NCBI RefSeq assembly: GCF_007750395.1
Contig: NZ_CP036281.1
Coordinates: 5,107,001 to 5,171,000 of the forward strand
Reading direction: 5' to 3'
DNA from: Polystyrenella longa
Lineage (GTDB): Bacteria; Planctomycetota; Planctomycetia; Planctomycetales; Planctomycetaceae
DNA: 64,000 nt
The notes under the pieces are model-generated. The model ran no database searches, was not told the DNA's origin, and was given only the letters and a program-made list of their open reading frames with translations. Positions 24,812 through 43,639 of the stretch are shown here, piece after piece. Both the position numbers and the translations under genes were made by a program. The first letter of the stretch is position 1. Each line of letters starts with the position of its first letter.

Positions 24812-25342
24812 TTAAACATGTCGATCAAGTTCAGCCAGAAAATCGTAAACCTCTTTGGCTGTCGTCGTGTGCATCAGTTGAAAGTTGGTCAAGCGGTTCT
24901 GTGAGAGGTTCATCAGGCGACCCAGAAACTCGGTATGCATCTCTCGTGCATCCCAGGGAGAGAGCGTCAAAATCACGAGACGCGTCGGGGTTTCTGTTCG
25001 ACCGAATTGAAAACCTTCTGGAAAGATGCCTATGGCACCCGTGAAGTGATTCACATACGGTGTTCGCAAATGCGGGAAAGCAATTCCATGCCCGATGGCG
25101 GTCGAACCATGATTCTCCCGAACCAGTAGCCCTCTCACCATCTCTTCTGCATACTGGCGCCCGATCCGTTCCTCTCGGGAAAGGCGTTCCATCAGCAAAC
25201 TGAGCACAGTTGACTTGCCACAGGCCTGCGGAAGGATTTCGATGCAGCTTGGTTTAAACACCGAAGTGAAGGGAAGCCAGGAAGATTCCTGGGTGTCAGA
25301 ACGGTATTCGTCCTGAGTCAATTTGCGATTGGAATCCACCAT
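24812..25342 (-). CDS. EIIA-Ntr-like PTS phosphotransferase protein
   Basis: The 176 residues match the PTS EIIA type 2 (fructose/PtsN) family: GHGIAFPHLRTPYVNHFTGAIG has the phospho-acceptor His (residue 91) in the GIAxPH context. Other conserved features are LLERLSREERIG-like sequence near 58-70 and MNLSQNRL near 140. A stand-alone EIIA of this kind usually regulates rather than transports, as PtsN does with potassium and sigma-54-linked functions. It is the last minus-strand gene of the group and has its own predicted sigma-54 promoter 140 nt upstream and tandem dyads above that. The start at 25342 is chosen over a TTG at 25372 because AAGAGA lies 7 nt before it. The regulon link to the dab genes is inference. 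Confidence 0.82.
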   Translation of the reverse strand: MVDSNRKLTQDEYRSDTQESSWLPFTSVFKPSCIEILPQACGKSTVLSLLMERLSREERIGRQYAEEMVRGLLVRENHGSTAIGHGIAFPHLRTPYVNHFTGAIGIFPEGFQFGRTETPTRLVILTLSPWDAREMHTEFLGRLMNLSQNRLTNFQLMHTTTAKEVYDFLAELDRHV

Positions 25343-25496
25343 GAGAGTTTCTCTTGATCGAAGTAAGGTCAAAGTGAAAAATCCTGTTTGAAGAACGAAC
25401 GGATACAGGCTTCAACCAAACAATCTCATTTCCCTCAGCGGAAGTTTGGTAGCTTGATTGAGAACCCGTAGTCCGTTCAGGAGATTCCCTGTCAAA

Positions 25497-25511
25497 GCAA
25501 TCGGCGTTCCA
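25497..25511 (-). promoter_or_regulatory. Predicted sigma-54 promoter of the EIIA-Ntr-like gene
   Basis: On the minus strand the sequence is TGGAACGCCGATTGC, which matches TGGCACG-N4-TTGC with one change (C to A) and the correct GG-to-GC spacing. The expected transcription start is near 25485, giving a leader of about 143 nt before the ATG at 25342. The matched arrangement of upstream dyads supports it. Confidence 0.7.
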
Positions 25512-25679
25512 TACGGTCCAAAGAGGATGTGACTTTGAGGCTTTTCATCACTTCTCCGTCAGGAATCCACAACGAAACAACAATAGAAGTCTGTTTTCGT
25601 CCTTCAGGGAATCTGGAAAAAAGATATCGAACCCTTTTCCTGAAAACACCGGAAACGTTGCCCCTGAGCTCTATACTGG

Positions 25680-25716
25680 ATGCAATACCCTGCGGAATGT
25701 CTGCAACTCTCTGCAG
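25680..25716. promoter_or_regulatory. Tandem enhancer-like dyads upstream of the EIIA-Ntr-like gene
   Basis: CTGCAACTCTCTGCAG at 25701-25716 is a perfect CTGCA-N6-TGCAG dyad. A degenerate version (ATGCAATACCCTGCGG) lies at 25680-25695, starting exactly 21 bp earlier. The pair sits about 213 bp upstream of the predicted start of transcription, just past the regulator gene's stop. The same motif, with the same 21-bp repeat spacing, is upstream of dabA. Confidence 0.7.
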
Positions 25717-25739: not shown

Positions 25740-27098
25740 TTAATGCAGGCCATATCGGCTCATTTTGTAGTGGAGTGTCCGTACGCTGACCCCCAGCTTT
25801 TTCGCCGTTTGCTCTCGGTGGTAATCAGAGGCAACCAGCGCGGCGTTGATCGCCTGCTGTTCGGCCTCTTCAACGACTTCGGCCAGCGAGCGGATTGGAT
25901 TTTTCCCAGCGGAAGAAGATTCGTTGAACTCACGCGGAAGATGTTCCACATAGATCAGTTCATGGGTGACCGTAACGACCAAGCGTTCCATGACGTTACG
26001 CAACTGCCGGACATTGCCTGGCCAACGGTGCGACGTTAATACGTACATCGCTTCCTCGCTGACTCGCTTGAGCTGTCGCCCGTGTCGCTCACAGAAATGC
26101 TGGAGGAAGTGCTCCACCAAAAGAGGAATGTCTTCCCGACGTTGCCGAAGAGCGGGGATTTGAATGGGAATAATATTCAGTCGGTAGTAGAGATCTTCGC
26201 GAACGGTCCCCTCTTCGATCAGTACTTGAATATCTTTGTTTGTCGCGGAAACGATGCGAGCATCCGACGTGAGCAGTTCCTCTCCGCCAACCCGGGAAAA
26301 CTGTCCCGTTTCCAATACGCGCAACAGGTCGACCTGGCTTTTGGGGGGTATTTCTGTCACTTCATCCAGAAACAATGTTCCTCCGCGACTCTGTTCAAAG
26401 CAGCCCGGCTTCTTGCGGGATGCCCCCGTAAACGAGCCTTTTTCATGCCCAAACAGTTCGCTTTCCAGCAGCGATTCCGGCAAGGCTCCCAGATTTACGG
26501 CCACGAACGGACGAGCCGAACGGCTACTGAGATCGTGGAGTGCCCGAGCGATCAATTCCTTACCCGTTCCGCTTTCTCCCTGAATCAGAACAGTGGCATC
26601 GGTATCGGCAACCTGCCGCACCTGCTGGAAGACTTCCTGCATCGAAGCACAGTTTCCGATGATTCCCGATATCTCACCCGCACCCGCAAGCCGATCCTTC
26701 AACTCCTGGTTTTCCGTCTGGAGCCGATGATGATTAAATGCTTTGCGAACCTGCTGCCGAATCAGATTCAGGTCGACCGGTTTGATCACAAAGTCGAAGG
26801 CACCGCGGCGCATCGCTTCCACAGCCGTTTCAACAGTGCCATGAGCTGTTATCACGATCACTGTCGTTTCCGGTTTCAGTTCCAGAATCATCGAGAGCAG
26901 ATCAAGGCCATCATGATTACCTGGCAACCGAACGTCTGCGATGACGATCTGGTAATGACGTTCTTTGAATTTCTGCAGCGCATCCTCGACGTCTTCCGCC
27001 GTCTGGATATGCCCGGCCTCCGCCTGCAATCCTTTTTCCAGGCCCGCGCGGATATTGGGTTCGTCGTCTACAATTAACAGGTTCAATCCGTCAGTCAT
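25740..27098 (-). CDS. NtrC-type sigma-54 response regulator
   Basis: The 452 residues have a receiver domain (phospho-acceptor D55 in IADVRLPG, acidic pair D11/D12, Lys in VIKPVD), a sigma-54 AAA+ domain (Walker A GESGTGKE near 175, the loop GSFTGA at 221-226, Walker [10 protein letters not shown]), and a C-terminal Fis-type helix-turn-helix. The GAFTGA loop carries Ser in place of the first Ala; the Phe-Thr-Gly contact residues are intact, so sigma-54 activation should work. It overlaps the kinase gene by 8 bp (ATGACTGA), so the two are translationally coupled. The dyads at 25680 and 28720 are the probable DNA targets; this is inference. Confidence 0.93.
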   Translation of the reverse strand: MTDGLNLLIVDDEPNIRAGLEKGLQAEAGHIQTAEDVEDALQKFKERHYQIVIADVRLPGNHDGLDLLSMILELKPETTVIVITAHGTVETAVEAMRRGAFDFVIKPVDLNLIRQQVRKAFNHHRLQTENQELKDRLAGAGEISGIIGNCASMQEVFQQVRQVADTDATVLIQGESGTGKELIARALHDLSSRSARPFVAVNLGALPESLLESELFGHEKGSFTGASRKKPGCFEQSRGGTLFLDEVTEIPPKSQVDLLRVLETGQFSRVGGEELLTSDARIVSATNKDIQVLIEEGTVREDLYYRLNIIPIQIPALRQRREDIPLLVEHFLQHFCERHGRQLKRVSEEAMYVLTSHRWPGNVRQLRNVMERLVVTVTHELIYVEHLPREFNESSSAGKNPIRSLAEVVEEAEQQAINAALVASDYHREQTAKKLGVSVRTLHYKMSRYGLH

Positions 27099-28479
27099 AT
27101 TCAGTCCGGGTCGTTTCTAAGTGGTTCATTTTCAGTGGTAAGCTGATTCGAAATGTTGTCCCACGTGGAGAACTTCGAAAATCGAGGGCACCATTGTGTT
27201 GGCGAATGATTTTCTCACATAAAGCCAATCCCATGCCAGTTCCCTGACTTTTCGTCGTAAAATAGGGATCGAAGATACGATCCTGCAAATCAACAGGGAT
27301 TCCTGACCCGGTATCGCTGATTTCGATCCGCACGGAATCGGGCTCTGTCATGCGTGTCACCTCGACGGAAATGGTTCCCCCTTCCGGCATGGCTTCGATC
27401 GCATTCAGCAAGAGATTTAAGAGCACCTGCTCCAGACGAATACGATCCATCTCGACGGTCGGTATTGGCTCCGTGGAAAATTCGGTTTTCAAAGTGACCC
27501 CCTGCTGTTCCGCCTGAGGTCGAATCAGTTTGAGTTGCCGATCGAGTAACTCCTGCACTTCGACGTCATCGTAATGCAAATGGCCAACGGACGCAAAATC
27601 TCGGAAGTTTTCCAGCACGCCCCCCACGCGCATGACTTCTGTTTTTATCACGCCCAGCATTTCCTGAATGTCGTCGGAAGCATCGGATTGATCGAGTTGC
27701 TCTTCCAGAAGTTGTACATGGAGTGACAACGCCGCGAGTGGATTTTTAATTTCATGATGTAAGCCGGCAGCCAGATTTCCTAGACCCATGTATCGTTCCA
27801 TGCGTCGCAACCGTTCATCGATCAGAACACGTTCGGTAACGTCCCTCAATTGAATGATATGACCGATGACTTGAAACTCTCGATTCTTCATCGGCTGACA
27901 GAACCCCCGCAAGGTACGAAGGGTTCCTTCCAACATTAAAGTAAAGTCGCGGGTCTCCTCAATGCTCTCTGGAAGCTGCATTTCCTGCCGATATTCTTCC
28001 AGCGCGATCTGCGAGGAAGCCTCATTCAACCGATGTCCAATGCCATCATCTTCCAGCTGCAAGAACTGTCGGCCACGCTCATTGATACTGGTGATTTCAC
28101 CTTGCATGTCGGTCGTGATCACCGCCTGATCCATGCTACTGAGAATATCTGATGCCTGGGCCTTGATGTCTCGAAGTGATTCCAGAGAAGAGCGATATGC
28201 GCGCCAGAGAATCACTACAGCCAGGGCAGTCAGAATGACGTTGATCACGATGAGAATCGTCAAGCGAAACTGCCAACGCAGCTCCCCCATCAGTTCTTCG
28301 GCCGAGGCTGTCATATTGGGTGGCAGGTTTTTAATCAGCTCCTGGACTATGATTTGTTCTCGCTGAAAATCAACCATAATCCAGGCCGAGACGCCCAGCG
28401 CAGAAAGACTGAGAACCAGCAAACCAATGATGGCCAGCGCAGGAGTTTTACGTGTGGGATCCTGACGAATACGAAACAT
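27091..28479 (-). CDS. Membrane histidine kinase of NtrB-type architecture
   Basis: The 462 residues have a first membrane segment (about 14-35), a short exported loop of about 35 residues, and a second membrane segment (about 71-92). A PAS domain (about 105-205) follows. Then comes HisKA with H242 in LHHEIKNPLAALSLHVQLLEEQL, and an ATPase domain with LEQVLLNLLLNAIEAMPEGG (N box), DTGSGIP and GTGMGLALCEKII. The phospho-relay partner is the adjacent response regulator. The exported loop is too short for a large ligand, so the signal may be sensed by the PAS domain or the membrane. The gene is divergent from dabA, separated by 660 bp that holds the enhancer dyads and sigma-54 promoter. Confidence 0.92.
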   Translation of the reverse strand: MFRIRQDPTRKTPALAIIGLLVLSLSALGVSAWIMVDFQREQIIVQELIKNLPPNMTASAEELMGELRWQFRLTILIVINVILTALAVVILWRAYRSSLESLRDIKAQASDILSSMDQAVITTDMQGEITSINERGRQFLQLEDDGIGHRLNEASSQIALEEYRQEMQLPESIEETRDFTLMLEGTLRTLRGFCQPMKNREFQVIGHIIQLRDVTERVLIDERLRRMERYMGLGNLAAGLHHEIKNPLAALSLHVQLLEEQLDQSDASDDIQEMLGVIKTEVMRVGGVLENFRDFASVGHLHYDDVEVQELLDRQLKLIRPQAEQQGVTLKTEFSTEPIPTVEMDRIRLEQVLLNLLLNAIEAMPEGGTISVEVTRMTEPDSVRIEISDTGSGIPVDLQDRIFDPYFTTKSQGTGMGLALCEKIIRQHNGALDFRSSPRGTTFRISLPLKMNHLETTRTEYD

Positions 28480-28719
28480 AACGAGGCTTTAGTTAAACTC
28501 CGAAAGCGATGTAGAAGAGACGATTTCGCTAATAAGTTTCCACTTGGAAAAATCGCGGTACCTGCCTTATACCCTTCAAACCAGCTTGGCGTAAACTAGC
28601 ATCGGCCAAATTTAGAAGAGACCATCAGGACGATTTATCCGAGCTCTTTTTCTACCCTTCGAGACTCCCCTCACAAATCCTACGATTTTCAAACGCAATC
28701 AGCCATCATCACTTAATGA

Positions 28720-28756
28720 CTGCATCTCATTGCAGGGTCACTGCAAAACTCTGCAG
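28720..28756. promoter_or_regulatory. Tandem enhancer dyads upstream of dabA
   Basis: Two perfect copies of CTGCA-N6-TGCAG: CTGCATCTCATTGCAG (28720-28735) and CTGCAAAACTCTGCAG (28741-28756). Their starts are 21 bp apart, two helical turns, so both face the same side of DNA. They sit about 241 bp upstream of the expected start, a typical distance for enhancers bound by NtrC-type proteins. The identical motif precedes the EIIA-Ntr-like gene. Confidence 0.8.
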
Positions 28757-28952
28757 AACCTTCGAAGCTCGCGAAGCCAGCGAGAGTGTACCGGGCCAAC
28801 GAGTCTTTATTTTTTGAAAAAACTGCAGGAACGCCTATCTGATAAATCTCTCACGATCGACGTTCAGAATAAGGCTTTTTGAGACTGTACTACTTACTCT
28901 GATGGGTCTCCCTACCTATTGCTGCTTGACCACTCGGTAGCGAGGTCAACTT

Positions 28953-28967
28953 TGGCATGAGTCTTGC
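28953..28967 (+). promoter_or_regulatory. Sigma-54 promoter of the dab operon
   Basis: The sequence TGGCATGAGTCTTGC has both invariant elements, TGGCA and TTGC, with the correct spacing. It matches the consensus with T in place of C at the sixth base. The expected start is near 28979. It is the only strong promoter match in the gap before dabA. Confidence 0.85.
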
Positions 28968-29141
28968 CTTTGTCGGTAAGGTTCGGGAAGGATTCCGCTC
29001 CGTATCTATCCCGATTATCGATAAGCCCGCCACGGACACCCCTGTCCTCTAACCTGATTTAGTTGAGTTCCTCTTTTCACCTGCCGTTCTCCTTTCCACG
29101 CTGAAGCCAAACTCGCCGGTTACTGATCCCCAGCACTCTCG

Positions 29142-32100
29142 ATGAAAGATTCGTTGAACGTGACATCCACTACTCAGGACAATCATTTCACGACCGAGTC
29201 CGATGTTCGACCTCATCGACTGGCCGATCTTCAACATCAAATTGAACATGCAGCACACCTGCTTCCGTCGCAAGGACCCATCACCGCTTTCGTTCACCAC
29301 AATACTCTTCACGCTTTTGAACAGCGTCCCTTCGAAGAAGGAATCCGTAAAGGGGGCGAACTCTGGAACTGCCACGCGTACTTATCCGAAGAAAAGTATC
29401 GGGAAGAATTCGAGAGAGATCGAATTCGCACGAGTGATCTCGAAGCCGTCCTAAGGGAGGAACTGAAGGAAGAAGCAGACCAACCCTTAATTGCTTCCGT
29501 GATGCGGTTTGAGCTTCGACTGGCGATGTTACGGAACCGTCTCTACGACGGAGACCCAGCCGAGCTGAACTGGGTGATCGCGGAAACCGATGCATTACGA
29601 CAGTTCCGATCAGACGTACCGAACGCCACACGGACGCATCTGATTGAATCAACCCGTCATTGGATCATGCGGGATCGTAAAGAAGTCTTCAGTGTGGGCA
29701 ATAAGGCGAACTTGCTCTCGGAAAATATGGGTCGGTTCACGCAACGTAGCATGGAACATTGGACGGACAAGAACTGGGAATCTTTTCTGTTGAACTCGTT
29801 GTGGAATATCTGTTACTCCGGTGTAAAAAATGTAGAAAAACAACTGGCGCACGCACCTCTACCAGAGATCCATCTGCCTCGTCATCGCAATTTACTGCTG
29901 GAGGCCACCGGAGAAGACACTGATCTTCGAGTACATGATCTGTTAATTCGATTCTGCTCAGCATTTCTTGACCAGGGATTTGCTGACTGGCATCTTCCCC
30001 ATCGTGAGCGGGGTATCTACAAATCATTTTTACAGCTGTACGGTAAACCCTTTGCACCTCCAGTCGACTGGTATCAGAATCTACAGCGGGAATCTTCGAG
30101 ATTACTCGAAGAGAATCTGGATCCCCTCGAATCAATCGAAGAATCGCTCCAACTGCTGGGCGTTAGAGAGGAGGAACGAGAAGAGTTCCTTACTCAATCT
30201 GTCGTCGCTTTGCGGGGTTGGTTCGGGATGGTGTGGCAGATGGAAACAGAAGCTGAATGGATGCCGCACCCGGCCCCCAAAGGCAGTCTGGTGGAACTGC
30301 TGGCGATCCGCTTGATGCTCGATCGACTTGCCATTGAAGAGGTTTCCAGAGAACAGCTGCACTTTGAGGGTCCTTTGAATGAAGTCCGAACCGACGCTCT
30401 AAAACGAATTTCTCGACTTGACCCCGACCAGGTGATACAGAAAGCATTCGTGGTTTTCCAACTCGCTCAGGTCTGTGGCTGGAAACCGGAAGACCTGTAC
30501 CAGTTCAACGATTCGCAATGGTTGATTCTCTTAAGAGAGATCGATGCTTTTTCAAGTTTTGAACGACGCCGCCTGTTTCATCAAGCCTACGAGCGTCGTT
30601 ACCGCAACGATACATTAGACGCGTTGATCAATCACCGGCGTAAACGGAAAGAATCAGAAACAACAAAAGAAGACCAGAAAGCGTCCTTCCAGATTTTGTG
30701 TTGTATTGACGACCGTGAAGAATCATTCCGACGACATCTTGAAGAAGTCGAACCAGCCTGTGAGACATTCGGACTCGCGGGATTTTATGGCGTCGCCATG
30801 TATTACCGTGGTTCATCCGATGCCCATTACAAGCCACTTTGTCCAAACACCATCAAGCCCAAACATTATGTGGAAGAGACTCCGCTGTACTCGTTACAGC
30901 AGGAAGATCGTCGTCGTGCGGAAACTCGCCGCCGGATTGGCCTGCTGACTCACCAGACCCACCGGGGCTCACGTTCACTTCTTGGTGGCTTGCTTACTGG
31001 CCTGATGGGATCTCTCGCCGCGTTTCCACTCGTCGCTCGTATCCTGTTCCCCAGAAGCACTGCTCAGTTCCGCAAGCTGTATGGAAAAATGGTCGAAACG
31101 AGGTTCACGGAACTACGATTAGAACGGGCCCCTCAAGACTCGACAGATGATGGCCATACTCATGGTTACACGATTGAGGAGATGGCAAATATCGTTGAAG
31201 GCGGCATGAGGGCCATCGGCTTAACCAGTTCAATGCGATATTCCGACCTGATCATCATCTGCGGTCACGGCTCCGGTAGCATCAACAACCCTCATGAATC
31301 GGCCTATAACTGCGGAGCTTGCAGCGGTAGCCGGGGCGGTCCGAATGCCCGCGCCTTCGCCAAGATGGCCAACGACAACAGGGTCCGAGAAATTCTGAAA
31401 CAACGTGACTTCCTGATCCCTGCTGGCACACTGTACGTCGGCTGTTACCACAACACGTGTGACGATTCCATTACCTGGTTCGATCTGGACGCCATTCCCG
31501 TGGGTCATCGAAAAAATTTCGAACATGCTCGCGATCAGATCAACGTGGCTCGCAAACGGAATGCACACGAACGTTGTCGCCGCTTTGAATCGGCCGAACT
31601 CGATAGCTCCTTTGAAGAAGCATTAAAGCATGTCGAAACCCGGGCACAGGACCTGTCTCAGGTTCGTCCTGAATATAACCATGCGACGAACGCCCTGACC
31701 TTCGTTGGAAGAAGAGAGTGGAGTCGCGGTCTGTTTGTCGACCGCCGGGCATTCCTCTCTTCCTATGACCCATCCACCGACGATGCCGAAGGACACATTC
31801 TGGAGCGGAGTTTGCAGGCCGTGATTCCTGTTTGTGCCGGTATCAGCCTGGAATATTACTTCTCCACAGTGGACGTCGAAGGTTATGGCTGTGGTTCCAA
31901 ACTACCGCATAATGTCGCCTCACTCCTCGGGGTGATGTCGGGAGCTTCCAGCGATTTACGTCCCGGGCTGTCGGCCCAGATGGTTGAAATCCACGAACCG
32001 ATGCGAAATCTCTTCGTCATTGAATCGACCGTAGAAGTCATGTCACGGATTATCGAGGAGAACGCAGGAATCAAACAACTCGTCAACGGAGGTTGGGTAC

Positions 32101-32288
32101 AGCTGGCAATATTCGAACCAGAGACCGGTCGAATTCAGCACTACCGCGATCATCAATTTACTGACTACCAACCGGAGTCGACCGACCTTCCGACGGTCGA
32201 TTCTTCCTGCAAGTGGTATCGAGGCTGGCGAGATCATCTCGGCTTCGCGTCGATTTCCGCTCCACCATCGCAGACAACCGTTTCCTGA
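29142..32288 (+). CDS. dabA: DabA-like inorganic carbon transporter subunit (DUF2309)
   Basis: DabA is the cytoplasmic carbonic anhydrase-like subunit of the DAB (DABs accumulate bicarbonate) system, which traps CO2 as bicarbonate using a proton gradient. The 1048 residues match DUF2309. Expected zinc-site residues are present: C521 and D523 in ILCCIDDREE, then H709 in CGHGSGS and C724 in AYNCGACSG. The H-to-C distance of 15 residues matches the site characterised in Halothiobacillus. The N-terminus has the ITAFVHHNTLHAFE motif. No ribosome binding site is clear before the ATG. The first antiporter-like subunit gene starts 61 bp downstream, making a probable operon. Confidence 0.92.
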   Translation: MKDSLNVTSTTQDNHFTTESDVRPHRLADLQHQIEHAAHLLPSQGPITAFVHHNTLHAFEQRPFEEGIRKGGELWNCHAYLSEEKYREEFERDRIRTSDLEAVLREELKEEADQPLIASVMRFELRLAMLRNRLYDGDPAELNWVIAETDALRQFRSDVPNATRTHLIESTRHWIMRDRKEVFSVGNKANLLSENMGRFTQRSMEHWTDKNWESFLLNSLWNICYSGVKNVEKQLAHAPLPEIHLPRHRNLLLEATGEDTDLRVHDLLIRFCSAFLDQGFADWHLPHRERGIYKSFLQLYGKPFAPPVDWYQNLQRESSRLLEENLDPLESIEESLQLLGVREEEREEFLTQSVVALRGWFGMVWQMETEAEWMPHPAPKGSLVELLAIRLMLDRLAIEEVSREQLHFEGPLNEVRTDALKRISRLDPDQVIQKAFVVFQLAQVCGWKPEDLYQFNDSQWLILLREIDAFSSFERRRLFHQAYERRYRNDTLDALINHRRKRKESETTKEDQKASFQILCCIDDREESFRRHLEEVEPACETFGLAGFYGVAMYYRGSSDAHYKPLCPNTIKPKHYVEETPLYSLQQEDRRRAETRRRIGLLTHQTHRGSRSLLGGLLTGLMGSLAAFPLVARILFPRSTAQFRKLYGKMVETRFTELRLERAPQDSTDDGHTHGYTIEEMANIVEGGMRAIGLTSSMRYSDLIIICGHGSGSINNPHESAYNCGACSGSRGGPNARAFAKMANDNRVREILKQRDFLIPAGTLYVGCYHNTCDDSITWFDLDAIPVGHRKNFEHARDQINVARKRNAHERCRRFESAELDSSFEEALKHVETRAQDLSQVRPEYNHATNALTFVGRREWSRGLFVDRRAFLSSYDPSTDDAEGHILERSLQAVIPVCAGISLEYYFSTVDVEGYGCGSKLPHNVASLLGVMSGASSDLRPGLSAQMVEIHEPMRNLFVIESTVEVMSRIIEENAGIKQLVNGGWVQLAIFEPETGRIQHYRDHQFTDYQPESTDLPTVDSSCKWYRGWRDHLGFASISAPPSQTTVS

Positions 32289-32349
32289 AATTGGATTTGT
32301 CGCCGCCCACCGGACATATTTAGTTTCCCCTTCTATTGATCGATAACCG

Positions 32350-33741
32350 ATGACCCTCGATTTACTGTTACAAATATTCGGAACCTGCGTTATCGCCTGT
32401 CCTGCGATACTGCTGTTCGTGTTTGGTCTGTCGACATTGCTCGGTTTTCCACTCAGCGAAAGAGTACTGTCACGTCTGACTGAAGTCTGTGTTTTATTCG
32501 GGCTATTTTCGGCCGTCTCTGTCTTAGCTTTAATGTTGCTGTACGACTTGCGGCATGTTCCGATCGAAATTGGAAACTGGGTCCTGATTGATGAGGAACA
32601 TTTCCATTTCAATCTGAAATTCGTCTTCGACCGACTCTCCGTTCCCTTTGTGATTCTGACCTACGTGCTCTGCGGTACGATTGGGGCATTCACTTCTCGT
32701 TACTTACATCGTGAGCCCGGTTTCAATCGTTTCTTCAACTTCTACGCCCTGTTCATGCTGGGCATGGTTGTCTCCTCGTTGGCTGGGACGATTGAATCGT
32801 TATTTCTGGGTTGGGAACTGGTCGGTCTGTCCTCTGCACTCCTGGTCGCCTTCTTTCATGAACGAGTCAACCCGATACGGAATGGATTGCGGGTCTGGTC
32901 CGTTTATCGAATCGCCGATGCCGCCTTCCTGGTCGCCGCGATTACCTTACATCACCTTACGGGAGCAGGCGACTTCGAGAGCCTGATGGGAACGGGCCCC
33001 TGGCCGGAAGGGACGGCAAACATCTCCGAGTCGCACGCCCTCATCGTGGGCCTGTTGTTACTGGTCGCCGCTGCTGGAAAATCGGCTCTCGTTCCCTTTT
33101 CCGAATGGCTACCGCGAGCGATGGAAGGCCCGACACCTTCGAGTGCCGTCTTCTACGGTTCCCTATCCGTTCATTTGGGAGCGTTTCTACTGTTGCGTGT
33201 CAGCCCCTTGCTGGAAGTCTCTCCGATTCTGAGTGGAGCGGTCATTTTGATTGGACTGCTTTCCGCAATTTATGGAGCCATCACAGCCCGGGTTCAATCC
33301 GATGTCAAAAGTGCCCTCGCATTTGCTTCGTTAACTCAGGTCGGCATTATTGTTGTCGAAATCGGACTCGGCTTCCGTTATCTGGCGTTGATCCACATCA
33401 TTGGCCATGCCTGTTTACGAACGTTGCAATTACTGCGAGCTCCTTCTTTGCTTCAGGATTATCACGAAATGGAAAACGCGATTGGATCGCATCTTCCCCG
33501 TGAACAGTCGTTCTGGCATCGCTTTACAACGGAAAAGACCCGTTACTGGTTTTATCGATACTCTTTAGAGCGAGGTTTTCTCGACACGCTGTTGTTCGCG
33601 TATCTGGTCCGTCCTTTCACTCTTTTTTTCCAGTGGTGTGATTCGCTCGAACGTCGATGGACAGATTTCCTTTCTGGTGGAGACTCGCGGGAATCCGAGG
33701 AGTTAAGACCGCAGCCCTTTTCACCGGAGGACTACCTATGA
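32350..33741 (+). CDS. dabB: DabB-like antiporter/NuoL-type membrane subunit
   Basis: The 463 residues contain about twelve membrane segments of the proton-conducting transporter family (NuoL, MrpA, DabB). The key elements are there: WELVGLSS near residue 155 (its Glu is the conserved TM5 residue) and [29 protein letters not shown] near 240-270 with the conserved Lys. Next to DabA, this subunit would couple proton flow to bicarbonate accumulation. The stop overlaps the start of the next gene by the ATGA arrangement, so translation is coupled. The C-terminal 60 residues are soluble and charged. Confidence 0.87.
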
Positions 33742-35243
33742 TGCCCGAACTCCATCTACCCTGGCTCGAACTATCAATCCTGCTGCCACTCCTGGGTGCC
33801 TGCTGGCTCTGCACGATTCGTAATCCGGAACGTGCACGACGTTTCAGTATTGCTATCACCGCAATTACGTTTGTTTTTTCTTGCGGAGAATGGATCGATT
33901 TTATCAGTCTGAAAACGTACGAAGCCCACGATCACTGGGATTTGATTTCGACCTTGTTTGGCCGCAACATCTTTGTCGTCGACGAGTTGAGTGCTCCCCT
34001 GTTACCGCTGGGGGCGTTGCTGTACTTCATGACGGTCCTGTCGACCTTACGTACTAAAGTAAACCGGTTCTCGTTTTCCTGGACACTCTTTTCTGAATGT
34101 ATTCTTCTCGCGACATTAAGCTGCCGCGAACCTTGGGGCGTGATTGCACTCCTCTCCGTCGCCACGATTCCTCCGTGGGTTGAAATGAAATCTCGTTCAC
34201 GATCCACCCGTGCTTATACATTGCATATGAGTCTGTTTGTCGTCCTGATGATCGTTGGTCAACTCACGCTCGATCTATCGACGAGCGTCTTCATGACAAC
34301 AGTTGCCGGAGCCATTCTGACTGCCGCAGCCTTGGTACGAACTGGCGTATTGCCGCTGCATTGCTGGATCACCGACCTGTTTGAAAAAGTGACCTTCGGA
34401 ACCGCTCTGCTCTACGTCACTCCCATGACGGGGGCTTACCTGGTGATGCGTCTTATTCTGCCAATCGCCCCTGACTGGGCGTTACAGAGTATCGCCGTAG
34501 TCTCGCTGGTAACTGCGGTCTACGCCGGAGGAATGGCGTTGATCCAACAGGAAGCCCGCCGGTTCTTCTGTTATTTGTTTCTCAGCCACTCCTCGCTGGT
34601 CCTTGTCGGATTGGAACTGGCGACATCTGTAGGATTAACGGGGGCACTGTGTGTCTGGTTGTCAGTCGGATTATCCTTGGCTGGCTTTGGACTGACCTTA
34701 CGCTGCGTCGAAGCCCGACGTGGTCGAATTTCACTTGCTGAATACCAGGGGTTATACGAACACACGCCCATCCTGGCCGCCTTCTTCATGATCACAGGTC
34801 TCGCCTCCATCGGCTTTCCCGGAACCATCGGCTTCATCGGTACCGAACTTCTGATCGAAGGAGCCGTCGACGTTTACCCTCTCGTAGGTACGTTCGTCGT
34901 GATCGCCGCCGCATTGAATGGCATCGCGATTCTCTCTGCCTACTTCCGCATATTCACAGGTAACACGATTACGACAACTCTAACATTGAAAGCAAGACCG
35001 GCTGAGCGAATTGCGGTGCTTGTATTAGCGGCGCTCATTCTGGGAGGCGGCCTGTACCCGCAGCCGGGTGTCGAATCCCGGTATCACGCGGCGAAATCGT
35101 TAATGACTCGGCGCCAGGAAAATCTGAATCGACAAACACAAATCACTAACGACTGGGAACAGGCTCCCACTCAACAGGACTATCAAAACAGACTCACCCA
35201 CGAAAACCGTCCCGCAATCTCCACCATGTTAATTACTCCTTGA
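33738..35243 (+). CDS. Second antiporter-like (NuoM/NuoN-type) membrane subunit
   Basis: The 501 residues have about fourteen hydrophobic segments and look like another proton-conducting transporter subunit. The segment [19 protein letters not shown] near 220-240 aligns with the KxxxxPFHxWLPDA region, but the Lys is Arg. The usual TM5 Glu is not evident in the corresponding [10 protein letters not shown] segment. It may be a structural or modified partner of DabB rather than a full proton channel. A start at 33738 (ATGATGCCC) overlaps the previous stop. Some DAB-type operons have only one such subunit. The role here is inference. Confidence 0.75.
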
Positions 35244-35336
35244 TATTCAGTTGAAGATCTCTCCGAGAGTTTGATTTCAATTCACTCAAATACTGTTCCT
35301 TTCTTTCTGAATAGAATCCTTTACCGGAACCCGCCC

Positions 35337-37346
35337 ATGCCCACGACGTCAAACAATGGTCAACCGAAACCTAAGGGAAATGCTGCCGGTTTTTCTCAGT
35401 ACTTCATGAAAGATCTCATTTCCGGTTTTCTGGTTTTCCTGATCGCTCTCCCGTTATGCCTGGGGATCGCTTCCGCAAGTGGGTTTCCTCCCATTGCCGG
35501 TATCTTTACGGCGATCATTGGGGCTTTAGTCACCACCTTCATCAGTAACAGCGAACTCACCATCAAAGGGCCTGCGGCTGGTTTGATTGTGATCGTCATC
35601 GGTTGCATCGAGGAGTTCGGTGGCAATGGTATGACGGGCGGTTGGACGGAAGCGGATGCAATGGCTTACAAAGCCGCCTTGGCTGTCGGTGTGGTCGCGG
35701 CCATATTCCAGATTCTGTTTGGCATCTTTCGGGCAGGAATTCTTGGCGAATTCTTCCCCGCCTCCGCCGTGCACGGCATGCTGGCCGCCATTGGCGTCAT
35801 CATCATTGTCAAACAGATTCCAGTCGCACTGGGTGTAGCCGCTTCGGGTTCGCCCTTGCATATGATGCAAGAAATACCGACGTACTTTACTCAGATGAAT
35901 CCGGCCATTGCCGCGATCGGTCTCACGAGTATTGCCATCATGTTTCTCTGGCCGTTAGCCGGTAAACAAGTTAGCGGTTTAAAAAAGGTCCCCAGCCCGA
36001 TCATCGTATTGGCTGTCGCAATCCCCATGGGAATGTATTTCAACCTGACCAGCGAACATGACTACGTCTTGGGAAGCAATACCTATCACCTGGACGATCA
36101 TTTCCTCGTTGACATGCCGGGTGAGATGTTCGGCATGATGAAGGACATTACCTTTCCAGACTTCACTGCGTTAAAGCAGCCCTTCGCCTGGAAATGGGTC
36201 TTCATGTTTTTCATCATCGGTAGTCTTGAATCTCTCCTGAGTGCCAAGGCTGTCGATTTACTCGACCCCTGGAAACGAAAAACAAACCTGGACCGAGACA
36301 TGCTCGCGGTGGGCGTGGGTAACTGCTGTGCCGCGTTCGTCGGTGGTCTTCCCATGATCTCCGAGATTGTTCGATCCCGGGCCAATATCGACAACGGTGC
36401 CCGCACCCGCTTCGCCGATATGTGGCACGGGCTCTTCCTGCTGCTCTGTGTGGCCTTTATCCCCATGTTCTTACACCTGATTCCCAACGCCGCCCTCGCT
36501 GCGATGCTGGTCTACACAGGAACTCGACTTGCCCATCCGACCGAGTTCATGAACGTCTATCGAATCGGAAAAGAACAGCTGTTGATTTTCGTCACTACAC
36601 TGGTGGCGGTACTGGCGACCGACCTGCTTATCGGGATCATTATCGGAATTTTACTCAAAATGACCATTCATGTTCTCAATGGAGTCGCTTTGAACTCACT
36701 CTTCAAACCGTTTCTTGAAGTGCAGAATGTGGATGAAAACACGAGCCTGATTGTCGCCCATCAGTCGGCTGTCTTCAGCAACTGGATTCCCTTCCGCCGT
36801 CAGATTGAACAGATTGGCCTGGTACAACGGCGAAACCTGATCATCGATGTCTCCAATGCTAAACTGGTTGATCATAGCGTCATGGAAAAACTGGAGGAAA
36901 TGGAACAAACATTCGAGCAGGAAGGTCTTCACTTCGAAGTCCGAGGTCTCGACACACTCCAACCTTTCACTGAAAACGCGCACGCCGCTCGCAAGCGAGG
37001 CTTGGCAACCGTTAAACGGATTACCGTAGTAGCGGATGAGTCACTACGGGAAATGCTGGAGAACGAGTTCGTCCGTTGCGGAGCGACCGGTTACACCACG
37101 TTCCCCTGCACCGGAAAAGGGCTGACGCAACTCGTTAACGATGACGACTCTAATCCGAACCAGTATCGAATCGAAGTGATTGTGCCTTTCGCCGTTTGCG
37201 AAACAATTCTCGGATATCTGCGAACGGAAGTTTTGCCGAAATACCACGTTACCACTTGTGTCGAGACGGTAGAGGTCGTGAAGGCGAACCAGTTCGCACC
37301 CGTCACACAAGAGATTCAAGTGGAGTTAATTACTCCACACAGCTAA
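35337..37346 (+). CDS. SulP anion transporter with STAS and C-terminal SbtB/PII-like domain
   Basis: The 669 residues begin with a SulP core: [41 protein letters not shown] and the IKGPAAG-type segment, with about eleven membrane spans up to residue ~450. A STAS-like domain follows (about 460-545: [22 protein letters not shown]). The last 110 residues (about 560-669: [68 protein letters not shown]) look like the SbtB/PII-like fold. SulP proteins include the bicarbonate transporter BicA; context with dabA supports bicarbonate as substrate. The start is the ATG at 35337; the frame also continues upstream to 35271. A terminator at 37394 closes the operon. Confidence 0.85.
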
Positions 37347-37393
37347 GCACGATTCACTATCGTACTTCAAACGTGTTCTTCCGTTTGAATGTA

Positions 37394-37437
37394 GGTCACC
37401 CCTGGTAATTGCCGTACTCTGGGGGTGGCCTTTTTTT
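37394..37437 (+). terminator. Rho-independent terminator of the dab operon
   Basis: A 9-bp stem (GGTCACCCC with GGGGTGGCC, one G-U pair) around a loop of about 19 nt, then seven T. It lies about 50 bp past the SulP stop. Confidence 0.8.
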
Positions 37438-41563: not shown

Positions 41564-43639
41564 GTGATACACACTAAGATGAAACCGAATCTTAGCGAGT
41601 CGTTTAGTTATCCAGTTGGTAACCACTCGCGATCTTCAGACGTCAGGATTGGCCCCTTCATGTCACAATCTGGTTCCCCCCGTTGGATGAGCTGGCGAAG
41701 TTTAAGATGGAACAGCGAGATGGAGCAATTGGGCTCGATCGTCCAGTTCTGCGACCGCATGCTGCAATTCCTTTGCGATTCTTCCACTTCCGATGAGTTC
41801 CTCAAACAACTTCTCCCGGAGATGGCCACTGAATTTTCCGCTCAGCGAATCTGCCTCTGGCAACGCACTCCCAAATGGAAATTACTGACTGAATTAGGCC
41901 GGGCCGGAAGCGACGAGCCCGATTTGCGTCAGTTTGAGGAAATCCTCGATCGGGGCGAATCCAGCTTCAACGCTCAGGGAACAGTTCCCTCCCTGATGGT
42001 TCCTCTGGAAATGGGCGCCGGAAATTCGCTTGTCCTCGTCATGGAGGGTAATCGGGTCGACTCCAGCATGCTCGAGAGTTCCGTCGCCTGTGGCCGTTTT
42101 CTCTCACACTGTCTCCAATTGATCAACAGTGGTGACAGCCTGGGTGATGAAATTTTCCAGCTACAGAAAATGCTGGAAGTTGTCTCCCGGTTGCCCATGA
42201 TTCATGAAACACAAAAGCTGCTCGAATACCTGGCCGAAAGTGCCACTGAGCTGGTCGACTGCGACCGGGCGAGTATTTTTGTCTGGAGCAAAGAGAGCAG
42301 CGAAATCACTGCCTGCCCTGCATTGGGAGTGGAAGGAAACACCCTGCGTCTGCCTGACAACGTCGGTATCGTGGGTGAAGTCATTCATTCAGGTCGGACC
42401 ATCCGCGTCGATGACGTCTCTCACGACGAACGCTTCCACGGAAAAGTCGATAAAACCAGTGGCTACCAGACGCGCAACCTGCTTTGCGTGCCGCTGCGGG
42501 GAAGTGACAACGAAATCATTGGGGCTTTTGAAGTTATCAACAAGAACGAAGGACTCTTCACTGCTGCCGATGAGCAATTTCTGTTGCGCATCGCCCCCCA
42601 TGCGGCTGCCGCAATTGTGAACACGAAAGAGCATGAAACACTCACCCGTAGCCGGGCTAACCTGGAAGAACAGGTCACCAGAGGGGTTCGTCTCATTGGA
42701 GAGAGCCCGGCGATTGAAGCCTTACGGAATACCGTCGATCGTCTAGCCGCCACTGACCTGCCCGTATTGATTCTGGGTGAAAGTGGAACGGGTAAGGAAG
42801 TCGTTTCGACCTCTCTCCATTACCTCGGTCCACGGGCCAAACATCCTTTCGTCGCCGTGAACTGTGCCGCGATTGCCGAAACATTATTGGAGAGCGAACT
42901 CTTCGGCCACATCAAGGGAGCCTTCACCGATGCCAGCGAAAATCGGAAGGGCAAATTTGAACTCGCAGAAGGAGGAACGATCTTCCTCGATGAAATCGGC
43001 GACATGAGTCTGGGTGGCCAGGCCAAGCTGTTGCGGGTACTGGAACAGAAAGTAGTCACGCCCGTAGGTGGCTCGCAGAATATTCCAATTAACGTGCGAA
43101 TCGTCGCCGCCACGAACGCCAATCTGCTGGAGTCTGTTCGGGAAAAGAAATTCCGGGAAGACCTCTACTATCGCCTGAGTGTTGTCACCCAGCACCTGCC
43201 CCCGTTACGGGATCGGCCGGAAGACATCCTCCCACTGGCCCAGTTCTTTCTGAAACAGTTCTCGGTACAGGCCCGTCGTCCAGAACTCCGTCTTTCGAGT
43301 GAAGCGCGTCTGCGGATGCAGTCTCACAGTTGGCCCGGTAACATTCGCGAATTACGCAACCTGATGGAACGGGTCGCGTTCCTCGCCAATGGTGACCAAG
43401 TCGAAGCGGAAGACCTGGCATTCATTCTCAGCCCGGATGAATCGCTTCAGAACGAGCCCTTCCTCGAGCTGGGTCTGAACGATGCAACTTCTTCCTTTCA
43501 GCGCGAATTCATCCGTAAATCGGTGAAACGAGTCAACGGCAACATGAGCGAAGCAGCCCGCCTGATGGGACTGCATCGCTCCAACCTGTACCGCAAAATG
43601 CGTCATCTCGACATGAATGAAGTTGGCGGCGAACAGTAG
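41564..43639 (+). CDS. GAF-domain sigma-54 activator with GAFTDA loop
   Basis: The 691 residues have an N-terminal region with a possible first GAF domain (about 60-190), a clear GAF domain (about 215-370: DCDRASIFVWSKESSE), then a sigma-54 AAA+ domain with Walker A GESGTGKE (residue 405), and a Fis-type helix-turn-helix (MSEAARLMGLHRSNLYRKM). The GAFTGA loop reads GAFTDA at 452-457, with Asp instead of Gly. GTG at 41564 is the start, since GAAGGA precedes it at 10 nt; a later Met at 41579 is less well placed. It resembles FhlA/NifA-type activators that sense small molecules via GAF. Targets unknown. Confidence 0.88.
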   Translation: MIHTKMKPNLSESFSYPVGNHSRSSDVRIGPFMSQSGSPRWMSWRSLRWNSEMEQLGSIVQFCDRMLQFLCDSSTSDEFLKQLLPEMATEFSAQRICLWQRTPKWKLLTELGRAGSDEPDLRQFEEILDRGESSFNAQGTVPSLMVPLEMGAGNSLVLVMEGNRVDSSMLESSVACGRFLSHCLQLINSGDSLGDEIFQLQKMLEVVSRLPMIHETQKLLEYLAESATELVDCDRASIFVWSKESSEITACPALGVEGNTLRLPDNVGIVGEVIHSGRTIRVDDVSHDERFHGKVDKTSGYQTRNLLCVPLRGSDNEIIGAFEVINKNEGLFTAADEQFLLRIAPHAAAAIVNTKEHETLTRSRANLEEQVTRGVRLIGESPAIEALRNTVDRLAATDLPVLILGESGTGKEVVSTSLHYLGPRAKHPFVAVNCAAIAETLLESELFGHIKGAFTDASENRKGKFELAEGGTIFLDEIGDMSLGGQAKLLRVLEQKVVTPVGGSQNIPINVRIVAATNANLLESVREKKFREDLYYRLSVVTQHLPPLRDRPEDILPLAQFFLKQFSVQARRPELRLSSEARLRMQSHSWPGNIRELRNLMERVAFLANGDQVEAEDLAFILSPDESLQNEPFLELGLNDATSSFQREFIRKSVKRVNGNMSEAARLMGLHRSNLYRKMRHLDMNEVGGEQ

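Follow-up and report, generated by a model that had tools for sequence, protein, structure and literature searches.

A Probable Sigma-54 and Two-Component Regulon for Inorganic-Carbon Uptake Centered on a DAB Locus of Polystyrenella longa

Introduction

The best described relatives of the locus treated here are the DAB/DAC pumps, represented by DabAB2 of Halothiobacillus neapolitanus, by Tcr_0853/0854 and by MpsAB of Staphylococcus. C351, C539, and H524 hold zinc in the solved DabA2, while D353 and R355 hold the zinc-bound water (PMC13144422); the same source says that DAB homologues occur in heterotrophs, and MpsAB of staphylococci has been described as supplying bicarbonate for carboxylation reactions (PMC8552792). 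Here we describe a 64,000-nucleotide stretch of the single-contig, 6.13-Mb genome of the planctomycete Polystyrenella longa (NZ_CP036281.1, positions 5,107,001 to 5,171,000; hereafter the window, with positions counted from its first letter; its genome is G000), in which dabA, dabB1, dabB2, and sulP on the forward strand diverge from the genes of a sensor kinase and a response regulator on the reverse strand, the whole spanning 25740-37346. The locus resembles the described pumps in its PF10070-type DabA, its aligned zinc site and its NuoL-like DabB, and it differs from them in combining NuoL-like and NuoM-like subunits with a SulP-PII protein in one cluster, in its predicted sigma-54/two-component control, and in belonging to a genome without a Rubisco match.

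Two further groups of known systems invite comparison. One is the two-component systems NtrB/NtrC, AtoS/AtoC, and ZraS/ZraR, with which the present pair shares domain order, a GAFTGA-type loop, a Fis-type helix-turn-helix and a -24/-12 promoter preceded, at a distance of 124-219 bp, by paired dyads, while it falls below their cut-offs, uses a dyad of the form TGCA-R-N4-Y-TGCA, and has predicted carbon-uptake targets. The other is the CO2-concentrating mechanisms of cyanobacteria and chemoautotrophs, in which, as here, genes for a bicarbonate pump, a SulP transporter and (in some relatives of the present locus) carbonic anhydrase stand together; unlike the Rubisco-based mechanisms, the present locus belongs to a genome with no Rubisco match, and genes for an outer-membrane porin and an EIIA protein carry the same upstream array. 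No description of sigma-54 or two-component control of a DAB system was recognized in the literature searched, the coverage of which was incomplete, so that the novelty proposed in a preliminary description of the window stands uncontradicted, and is provisional.

Results

A Predicted Sigma-54 Promoter and a TGCA Array Precede dabA

The site TTGGCATGAGTCTTGC upstream of dabA is an exact match to TTGGCAYGN4TTGC and the sole one in the 64 kb, even with one mismatch allowed, and it contains the GG-N10-GC elements of a -24/-12 promoter in consensus surroundings. With a hand-entered sigma-54 weight matrix, it scores 16.6 of 19.96, the top value of the window on both strands; among 30 Markov-1 shuffles of the 64-kb window, likewise scored on both strands, 3 sites in total reached this level. 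Genome-wide, the pattern YTGGCAYGN4TTGC(N)W gave 6 rows (5 distinct places) versus 3 rows for the reversed control. The transcription start predicted from this site, 12 nt beyond the GC of the -12 box, falls near 28979, where the preliminary description had put it, and the canonical promoter that it had claimed is borne out by the near-perfect site. The gene rpoN is encoded at one place in the genome (PF04552, 203 bits), and dabA is predicted to be transcribed in a sigma-54-dependent manner.

The -24 box is preceded, at about 214 bp, by an array of four TGCA boxes (starting at 28721, 28731, 28742, and 28752), which form two TGCA-N6-TGCA dyads with 7 nt between them, at a spacing of roughly one DNA turn; these are the tandem dyads noticed earlier. 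Four mismatch-free boxes at this spacing are found once in the 6.1-Mb genome. When symmetrized over 16 arrays (L019 included, L013 left out; loci and genomes are cited by our own L and G numbers), the dyad reads TGCA-R-N4-Y-TGCA, with 6 or 7 nt between dyads.

The Array Is Co-Inherited With the Two-Component System

The loci for the comparative analysis came from several sources, in one of which 80 of 152 relatives were kept, and the final set comprised 62 DAB loci, excluding those with DabA identity below 42%, duplicates, and seven with less than 420 nt upstream (L124, L006, L020, L034, L035, L044, and L047); some fragmentary or second DabA matches (in G007, G008, G016, G019, and G055, for example) lie outside the set. 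Sixteen loci were counted as system-positive, having a kinase or regulator at no less than 43% identity, 14 of them in the fetched locus and 2 elsewhere in the genome (G006 and G017); beside dabA, the kinase alone was seen in L011, L012, and L013, and the regulator alone in L022. The dyad pair, with at most one mismatch, was found within 600 nt upstream of dabA in all 16 system-positive loci versus 1 of the 46 others (L019), the regulator having been sought, for loci from named contigs, within the fetched locus only, so that some loci scored as lacking it could shift to the positive class. The same search succeeded in 3 of 2480 Markov resamples. Sigma-54-like sites scoring at least 11, a cut-off set after the scores had been seen, were present in 16/16 versus 4/46 loci (L019, L115, L123, and L135), and eight of the 16 exceed the 99% point (14.3) of 2400 random 760-nt windows. 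The distance from array to sigma-54-like site is 124-219 bp in 15 of the 16; for the exception, L013, the script picked a pair farther upstream, and the array that aligns with its neighbors' is also present.

In two genomes the regulator is unlinked. In the single-contig genome G006 it is encoded 3.7 Mb away, and in G017 on another contig, and in both the array still precedes dabA, so that it is not merely a by-product of the divergent genes. At the level of whole genomes, a regulator match (E <= 1e-120) is found in 10 of 59, P. longa included, and the strict four-box motif in 11, of which 9 are among the 10 regulator-bearing genomes and 2 among the 49 others (G028 and G033; Fisher 4e-8). As these genomes are also the source of the motif, the first of these fractions is partly circular; the second, the background, is not. 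The reversed pattern is present in none of the 59, and the tenth regulator-bearing genome, G057, has the array before dabA with one mismatch. The matches at G009 C1:2203004, in G030 C128, and in G028 and G033 were treated as background. When presence of the array is mapped on a tree of 61 DabA sequences (excluding near-copy L029; quick search, simple model), four changes are required, at least two of them forced by well-supported branches, so that the array is retained in several lineages whose DabA shares about 50% identity with that of the window.

The Regulator, the Kinase, and the Pump

The features of NtrC-type enhancer-binding proteins (receiver Asp, Walker A, GAFTGA-type loop, Fis-type helix-turn-helix) are all present in the regulator. 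Receiver Asp and Walker A are conserved in 12 of 12 proteins of sufficient length; the G[AS]F[TS]GA loop, which is GSFTGA in the window protein, and the sequence SVRTLHYKM are conserved in 13 of 13 aligned (the L132 regulator is outside this set), and the DNA site that accompanies these proteins, TGCA-R-N4-Y-TGCA, is nearly constant. In domain make-up only, the two proteins agree with the divergent NtrB/NtrC-type pair of the preliminary description; assignment to NtrC itself fails, with 440 bits against a cut-off of 558.6 (TIGR01818). The score against the AtoC model is 462 bits (cut-off 714), and regulator and kinase lie below the NCBIfam cut-offs for NtrC, AtoC, ZraR, AtoS, ZraS, and NR(II), so that orthology of the regulator with NtrC or AtoC was rejected. 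Pfam showed no kinase input domain beyond PAS.

DabA matches PF10070 over its full length (profile positions 1-747; 767 bits, cut-off 25), and its C521, D523, R525, H709, and C724 align with C351, D353, R355, H524, and C539 of DabA2. Its nearest named records are from metagenome-assembled genomes labeled Planctomycetaceae (82% identity) and Planctomyces sp. (78%). An antiporter-like DabB is encoded beside it, as in other DAB/DAC pumps, and the structure entry that this protein matches, 9rd0_B, is the solved DabB2. Domain matches likewise uphold the order dabA, dabB-like gene, second antiporter-like subunit and SulP gene; the most likely starts of the last two, judged by eye and correcting the earlier ones, are 33738, with an ATGA overlap, and 35337. 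The SulP gene adjoins the DAB genes, and its product has a PII-like tail, absent from the earlier account; the tail is shared by the SulP proteins of L114 and L016, and none is reported for L126. The cluster would accumulate inorganic carbon in an energy-dependent manner. That no Rubisco gene is near holds for the whole genome, in which PF00016 has no match at E <= 0.001. Two beta-carbonic anhydrase matches are present, one fused to SulP. By analogy with MpsAB, the likeliest use of the bicarbonate in this bacterium would be in carboxylation reactions, which may include those of purine synthesis, as the preliminary description had proposed.

Predicted Further Targets

Upstream of ptsN, beyond the regulator gene, lie a second array and a sigma-54-like site (Table 1), both absent from the preliminary description. 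The array is strict at the same place in G001, where the sigma-54-like site scores only 9.7, and L126 has a site of 16.6 at the ptsN start and no array there, while ptsN was not seen in the G002 locus within the 6.2 kb fetched beyond the regulator. With an array before ptsN seen in P. longa and in G001, universal membership of ptsN is not supported.

Another candidate is an OprP-family porin. Strict dyad pairs with 5-10 nt between dyads number exactly two in the genome, one before dabA and one before this porin (array at 5195307-5195343 of the genome, reading frame from 5195507), and the pair recurs with the porin orthologues in G001 and G002. The porins of this group are 51-58% identical to that of L022, compared to 29% for another long porin of the genome, and they adjoin the kinase or regulator gene in L022, L024, L117, and L183. 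In each of the three genomes of this genus, a small conserved gene (92-110 aa; L208:2920-3252) is divergent from the porin that carries the array.

Carbonic anhydrases provide a third example. A beta-carbonic anhydrase-like gene is found near dabA in 6 of the 16 system-bearing loci versus 1 of the 46 others (L119), an enrichment that points to inorganic carbon. It is divergent from dabA in L011, L013, L114, L117, and L139 and downstream in L132 (Pfam-checked in L114, L117, L132, and L139; assigned by about 26% identity to the query in L011 and L013), and in L011 and L013 it is faced by a 13.6 sigma-54-like site. In its place, L024 and L126 have beside dabA, on the reverse strand, the gene of a protein of 543 or 546 residues, respectively (L024:6472-8103 and L126:6612-8252; 77% identical), with CxDxR and HxxxxxxxC motifs, and a 16.7 sigma-54 site lies on the same strand about 1.2 kb before the L024 gene. 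Pfam gave no match for the L024 protein at 0.001 and only MTA_R1 (E 0.2) for that of L126. TIGR02701 (carboxysome shell carbonic anhydrase) offers a weak hint for the former (E 0.018) and nothing for the latter. The best PDB matches are unrelated (E 0.6 and 0.29), a search for a plasmid match gave none, and a single-sequence model of the 543-residue protein has a mean pLDDT (predicted local distance difference test) of 36, too low to be informative.

Other Features

Coordinates of the window features are collected in Table 1. On contig C299 of G017 a strict array (L188:276-309) immediately precedes a NuoL/NuoH-like membrane cluster, which may be a further target connected with energy or carbon. 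Elsewhere in the P. longa genome a perfect-consensus sigma-54 site (score 20.0; L184:1080, near 1240880 of G000:C1) precedes a GroEL-like frame recognized by eye. The window has a second sigma-54-activator-like gene (41564-43639, by eye), whose product reads GAFTDA for GAFTGA, so that contact with sigma-54 may be lost.

Table 1. Positions in the window of the genes and predicted control elements discussed.
Feature	Position	Strand	Basis
ptsN-like EIIA gene, predicted second target	24812-25342	-	PF00359, conserved GxAFPH motif
Sigma-54-like site before ptsN, ATGGAACGCCGATTGCT	25496-25512	-	Score 13.8
Second TGCA array, 1 mismatch, between regulator gene and ptsN	25681-25715	.	Motif scan
Response regulator	25740-27098	-	Receiver, sigma-54-interacting AAA+ with GSFTGA loop, Fis-type helix-turn-helix (Pfam)
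Sensor histidine kinase	27091-28479	-	PAS, HisKA, HATPase; two hydrophobic N-terminal segments, about 40 residues between
Upstream activating array, four TGCA boxes, predicted response-regulator site	28721-28755	.	Conservation
Predicted sigma-54 promoter of dabA, -24/-12, TTGGCATGAGTCTTGC	28952-28967	+	Consensus match, weight matrix, conservation
dabA, beta-carbonic anhydrase-like zinc subunit	29142-32288	+	PF10070, E 2e-230; DabA2 residue alignment
dabB1, NuoL-like antiporter subunit	32350-33741	+	Also matches DabB2 9rd0_B, E 1.7e-23
dabB2, NuoM-like second antiporter subunit	33738-35243	+	Start overlaps dabB1 stop (ATGA)
SulP anion transporter, C-terminal PII-like domain	35337-37346	+	Domain matches

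Discussion

Overall, we consider it highly probable that the locus is the center of a sigma-54/two-component regulon for inorganic-carbon uptake. The membrane kinase would phosphorylate the regulator, which would bind the TGCA array and loop to sigma-54 RNA polymerase at 28952-28967, and transcription of dabA-dabB1-dabB2-sulP would begin near 28979; DabA/DabB, driven by proton-motive force, would then hydrate CO2 to bicarbonate, and SulP-PII would probably move bicarbonate. Probable further targets of this regulator are ptsN, the unlinked OprP-type porin and, in some relatives, the carbonic anhydrase gene divergent from dabA. The most likely signal would be low CO2 or bicarbonate, or a linked pH or membrane-energy cue. 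As to the earlier proposal that the two-component system switches on the bicarbonate pump, comparative evidence gives good support to control of the DAB operon by the divergent pair through sigma-54, while activation, as opposed to repression, is inferred because the regulator belongs to an activator family. The word "dedicated" is apt only in part, since the motif also marks ptsN and the porin in the genus, and an RND pump in G009 (see below).

A more specific proposal, which we advance tentatively and consider unlikely to hold in full, is that the kinase is a dedicated sensor of CO2/bicarbonate limitation, governing through one TGCA dyad-pair code an envelope-to-cytoplasm import regulon in non-autotrophic planctomycetes. 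Its parts would be outer-membrane entry through the OprP-type porin, DAB and SulP-PII in the inner membrane, carbonic anhydrases including the previously undescribed 543-residue CxDxR protein of some relatives, and a link to central metabolism through EIIA.

Several observations weigh against an inorganic-carbon regulon as described here. One is presented by G009, where the regulator and the motif are present and no DabA match is found; the regulator, a strict array and a 12.7 sigma-54-like site there stand before an HlyD/AcrB-type RND efflux operon (L181:10628-15951). This regulator can thus be wired to other genes, and a general envelope or energy signal stays a candidate. On the regulator tree, the outgroups of which sit on very long branches, both loss of DAB and first branching of G009 are compatible. 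The score cut-off of 11 and the motif itself were chosen on the same loci that were tested, and these loci are related, as the four label changes on the DabA tree indicate. The sigma-54-like sites of L117, L024, and L139 (12.8-14.3) do not pass the random 99% point, and those of L011, L012, L013, L016, and L114 (11.2-12.3) are near the 95% point (11.9), so that, with eight loci above 14.3 and the others weaker, the sites taken together are strong evidence for the promoter, and about half of them are so individually. In L019 the array and the promoter are present and no regulator is visible on a contig that starts 1.3 kb upstream; this locus may belong among the loci with the regulator elsewhere in the genome. 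The excluded L034 (Wallbacteria) similarly has a 15.1 sigma-54-like site, and no regulator is visible in its short upstream region. In none of the three genomes of the genus is the porin faced by a sigma-54 box scoring at least 8, suggesting that its box is poor or that it is controlled in some other way, and the beta-carbonic anhydrase-like gene is not found in the other 10 of the 16 loci, as far as these were fetched. The support as a whole comes from sequence comparison.

The G009 case bears on the possibility that kinase and regulator respond to envelope, pH or membrane-energy stress, in the manner of AtoSC/ZraSR, with DAB as one of their targets and serving pH or proton-motive-force homeostasis instead of carbon supply. 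Consistent with such a role, the kinase scores highest, among named models, with AtoS and ZraS and the regulator with AtoC, though none of these scores reaches its cut-off; a porin and ptsN are predicted members; and an HlyD/AcrB-type operon also follows the regulator in G002. However, no dyad is present in the 400 nt scanned before the G002 operon, carbonic anhydrase genes co-occur with the system, and in all nine of the other regulator-bearing genomes a DAB locus is present whose dabA is preceded by the array (with one mismatch in G057). We therefore see a stress system of this kind as a serious alternative that is nonetheless rather unlikely.

Far less probable is that the array serves autoregulation of the kinase and regulator only, dabA having an independent sigma-54 input. 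The position of the array between two divergent units in the window and in several relatives would fit, as would a 19.4 sigma-54 site facing the regulator in L022 and a one-mismatch array between the unlinked kinase and a porin in G017. Such a role is disfavored by the array staying with dabA where the regulator is unlinked (G006 and G017), by a scan of 400 nt about the start of the unlinked kinase gene in G006, which showed no dyad, and by the 124-219 bp that separate array and dabA sigma-54-like site in 15 of the 16 loci. Least probable of all, and rejected on conservation, is that site and dyads are chance matches and that dabA is transcribed from an ordinary promoter: with one mismatch allowed, the promoter pattern is matched by chance in 44 of 100 window shuffles, the array is missing from 45 of the 46 loci without the regulator, and most planctomycete dabA genes have neither feature, so that DAB in general does not need them, but the same order and similar spacing recur upstream of DabA genes whose products are only about 50% identical, where regulator or kinase is present.

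If the proposed inorganic-carbon regulon is real, it would be a planctomycete sigma-54 regulon with a readable DNA motif, and it would tie a porin family named as phosphate-selective to carbon-uptake genes. That one DNA signal marks the pump genes, a porin gene and a phosphotransfer gene suggests that the response to inorganic carbon is coordinated in this organism, from which growth on CO2 would not be expected. The role of DAB systems in heterotrophs, and their control, are poorly understood, and a candidate regulator, a binding code and a set of targets make the question testable; should the signal be found, it would become possible to learn what DAB is for in bacteria that lack Rubisco.

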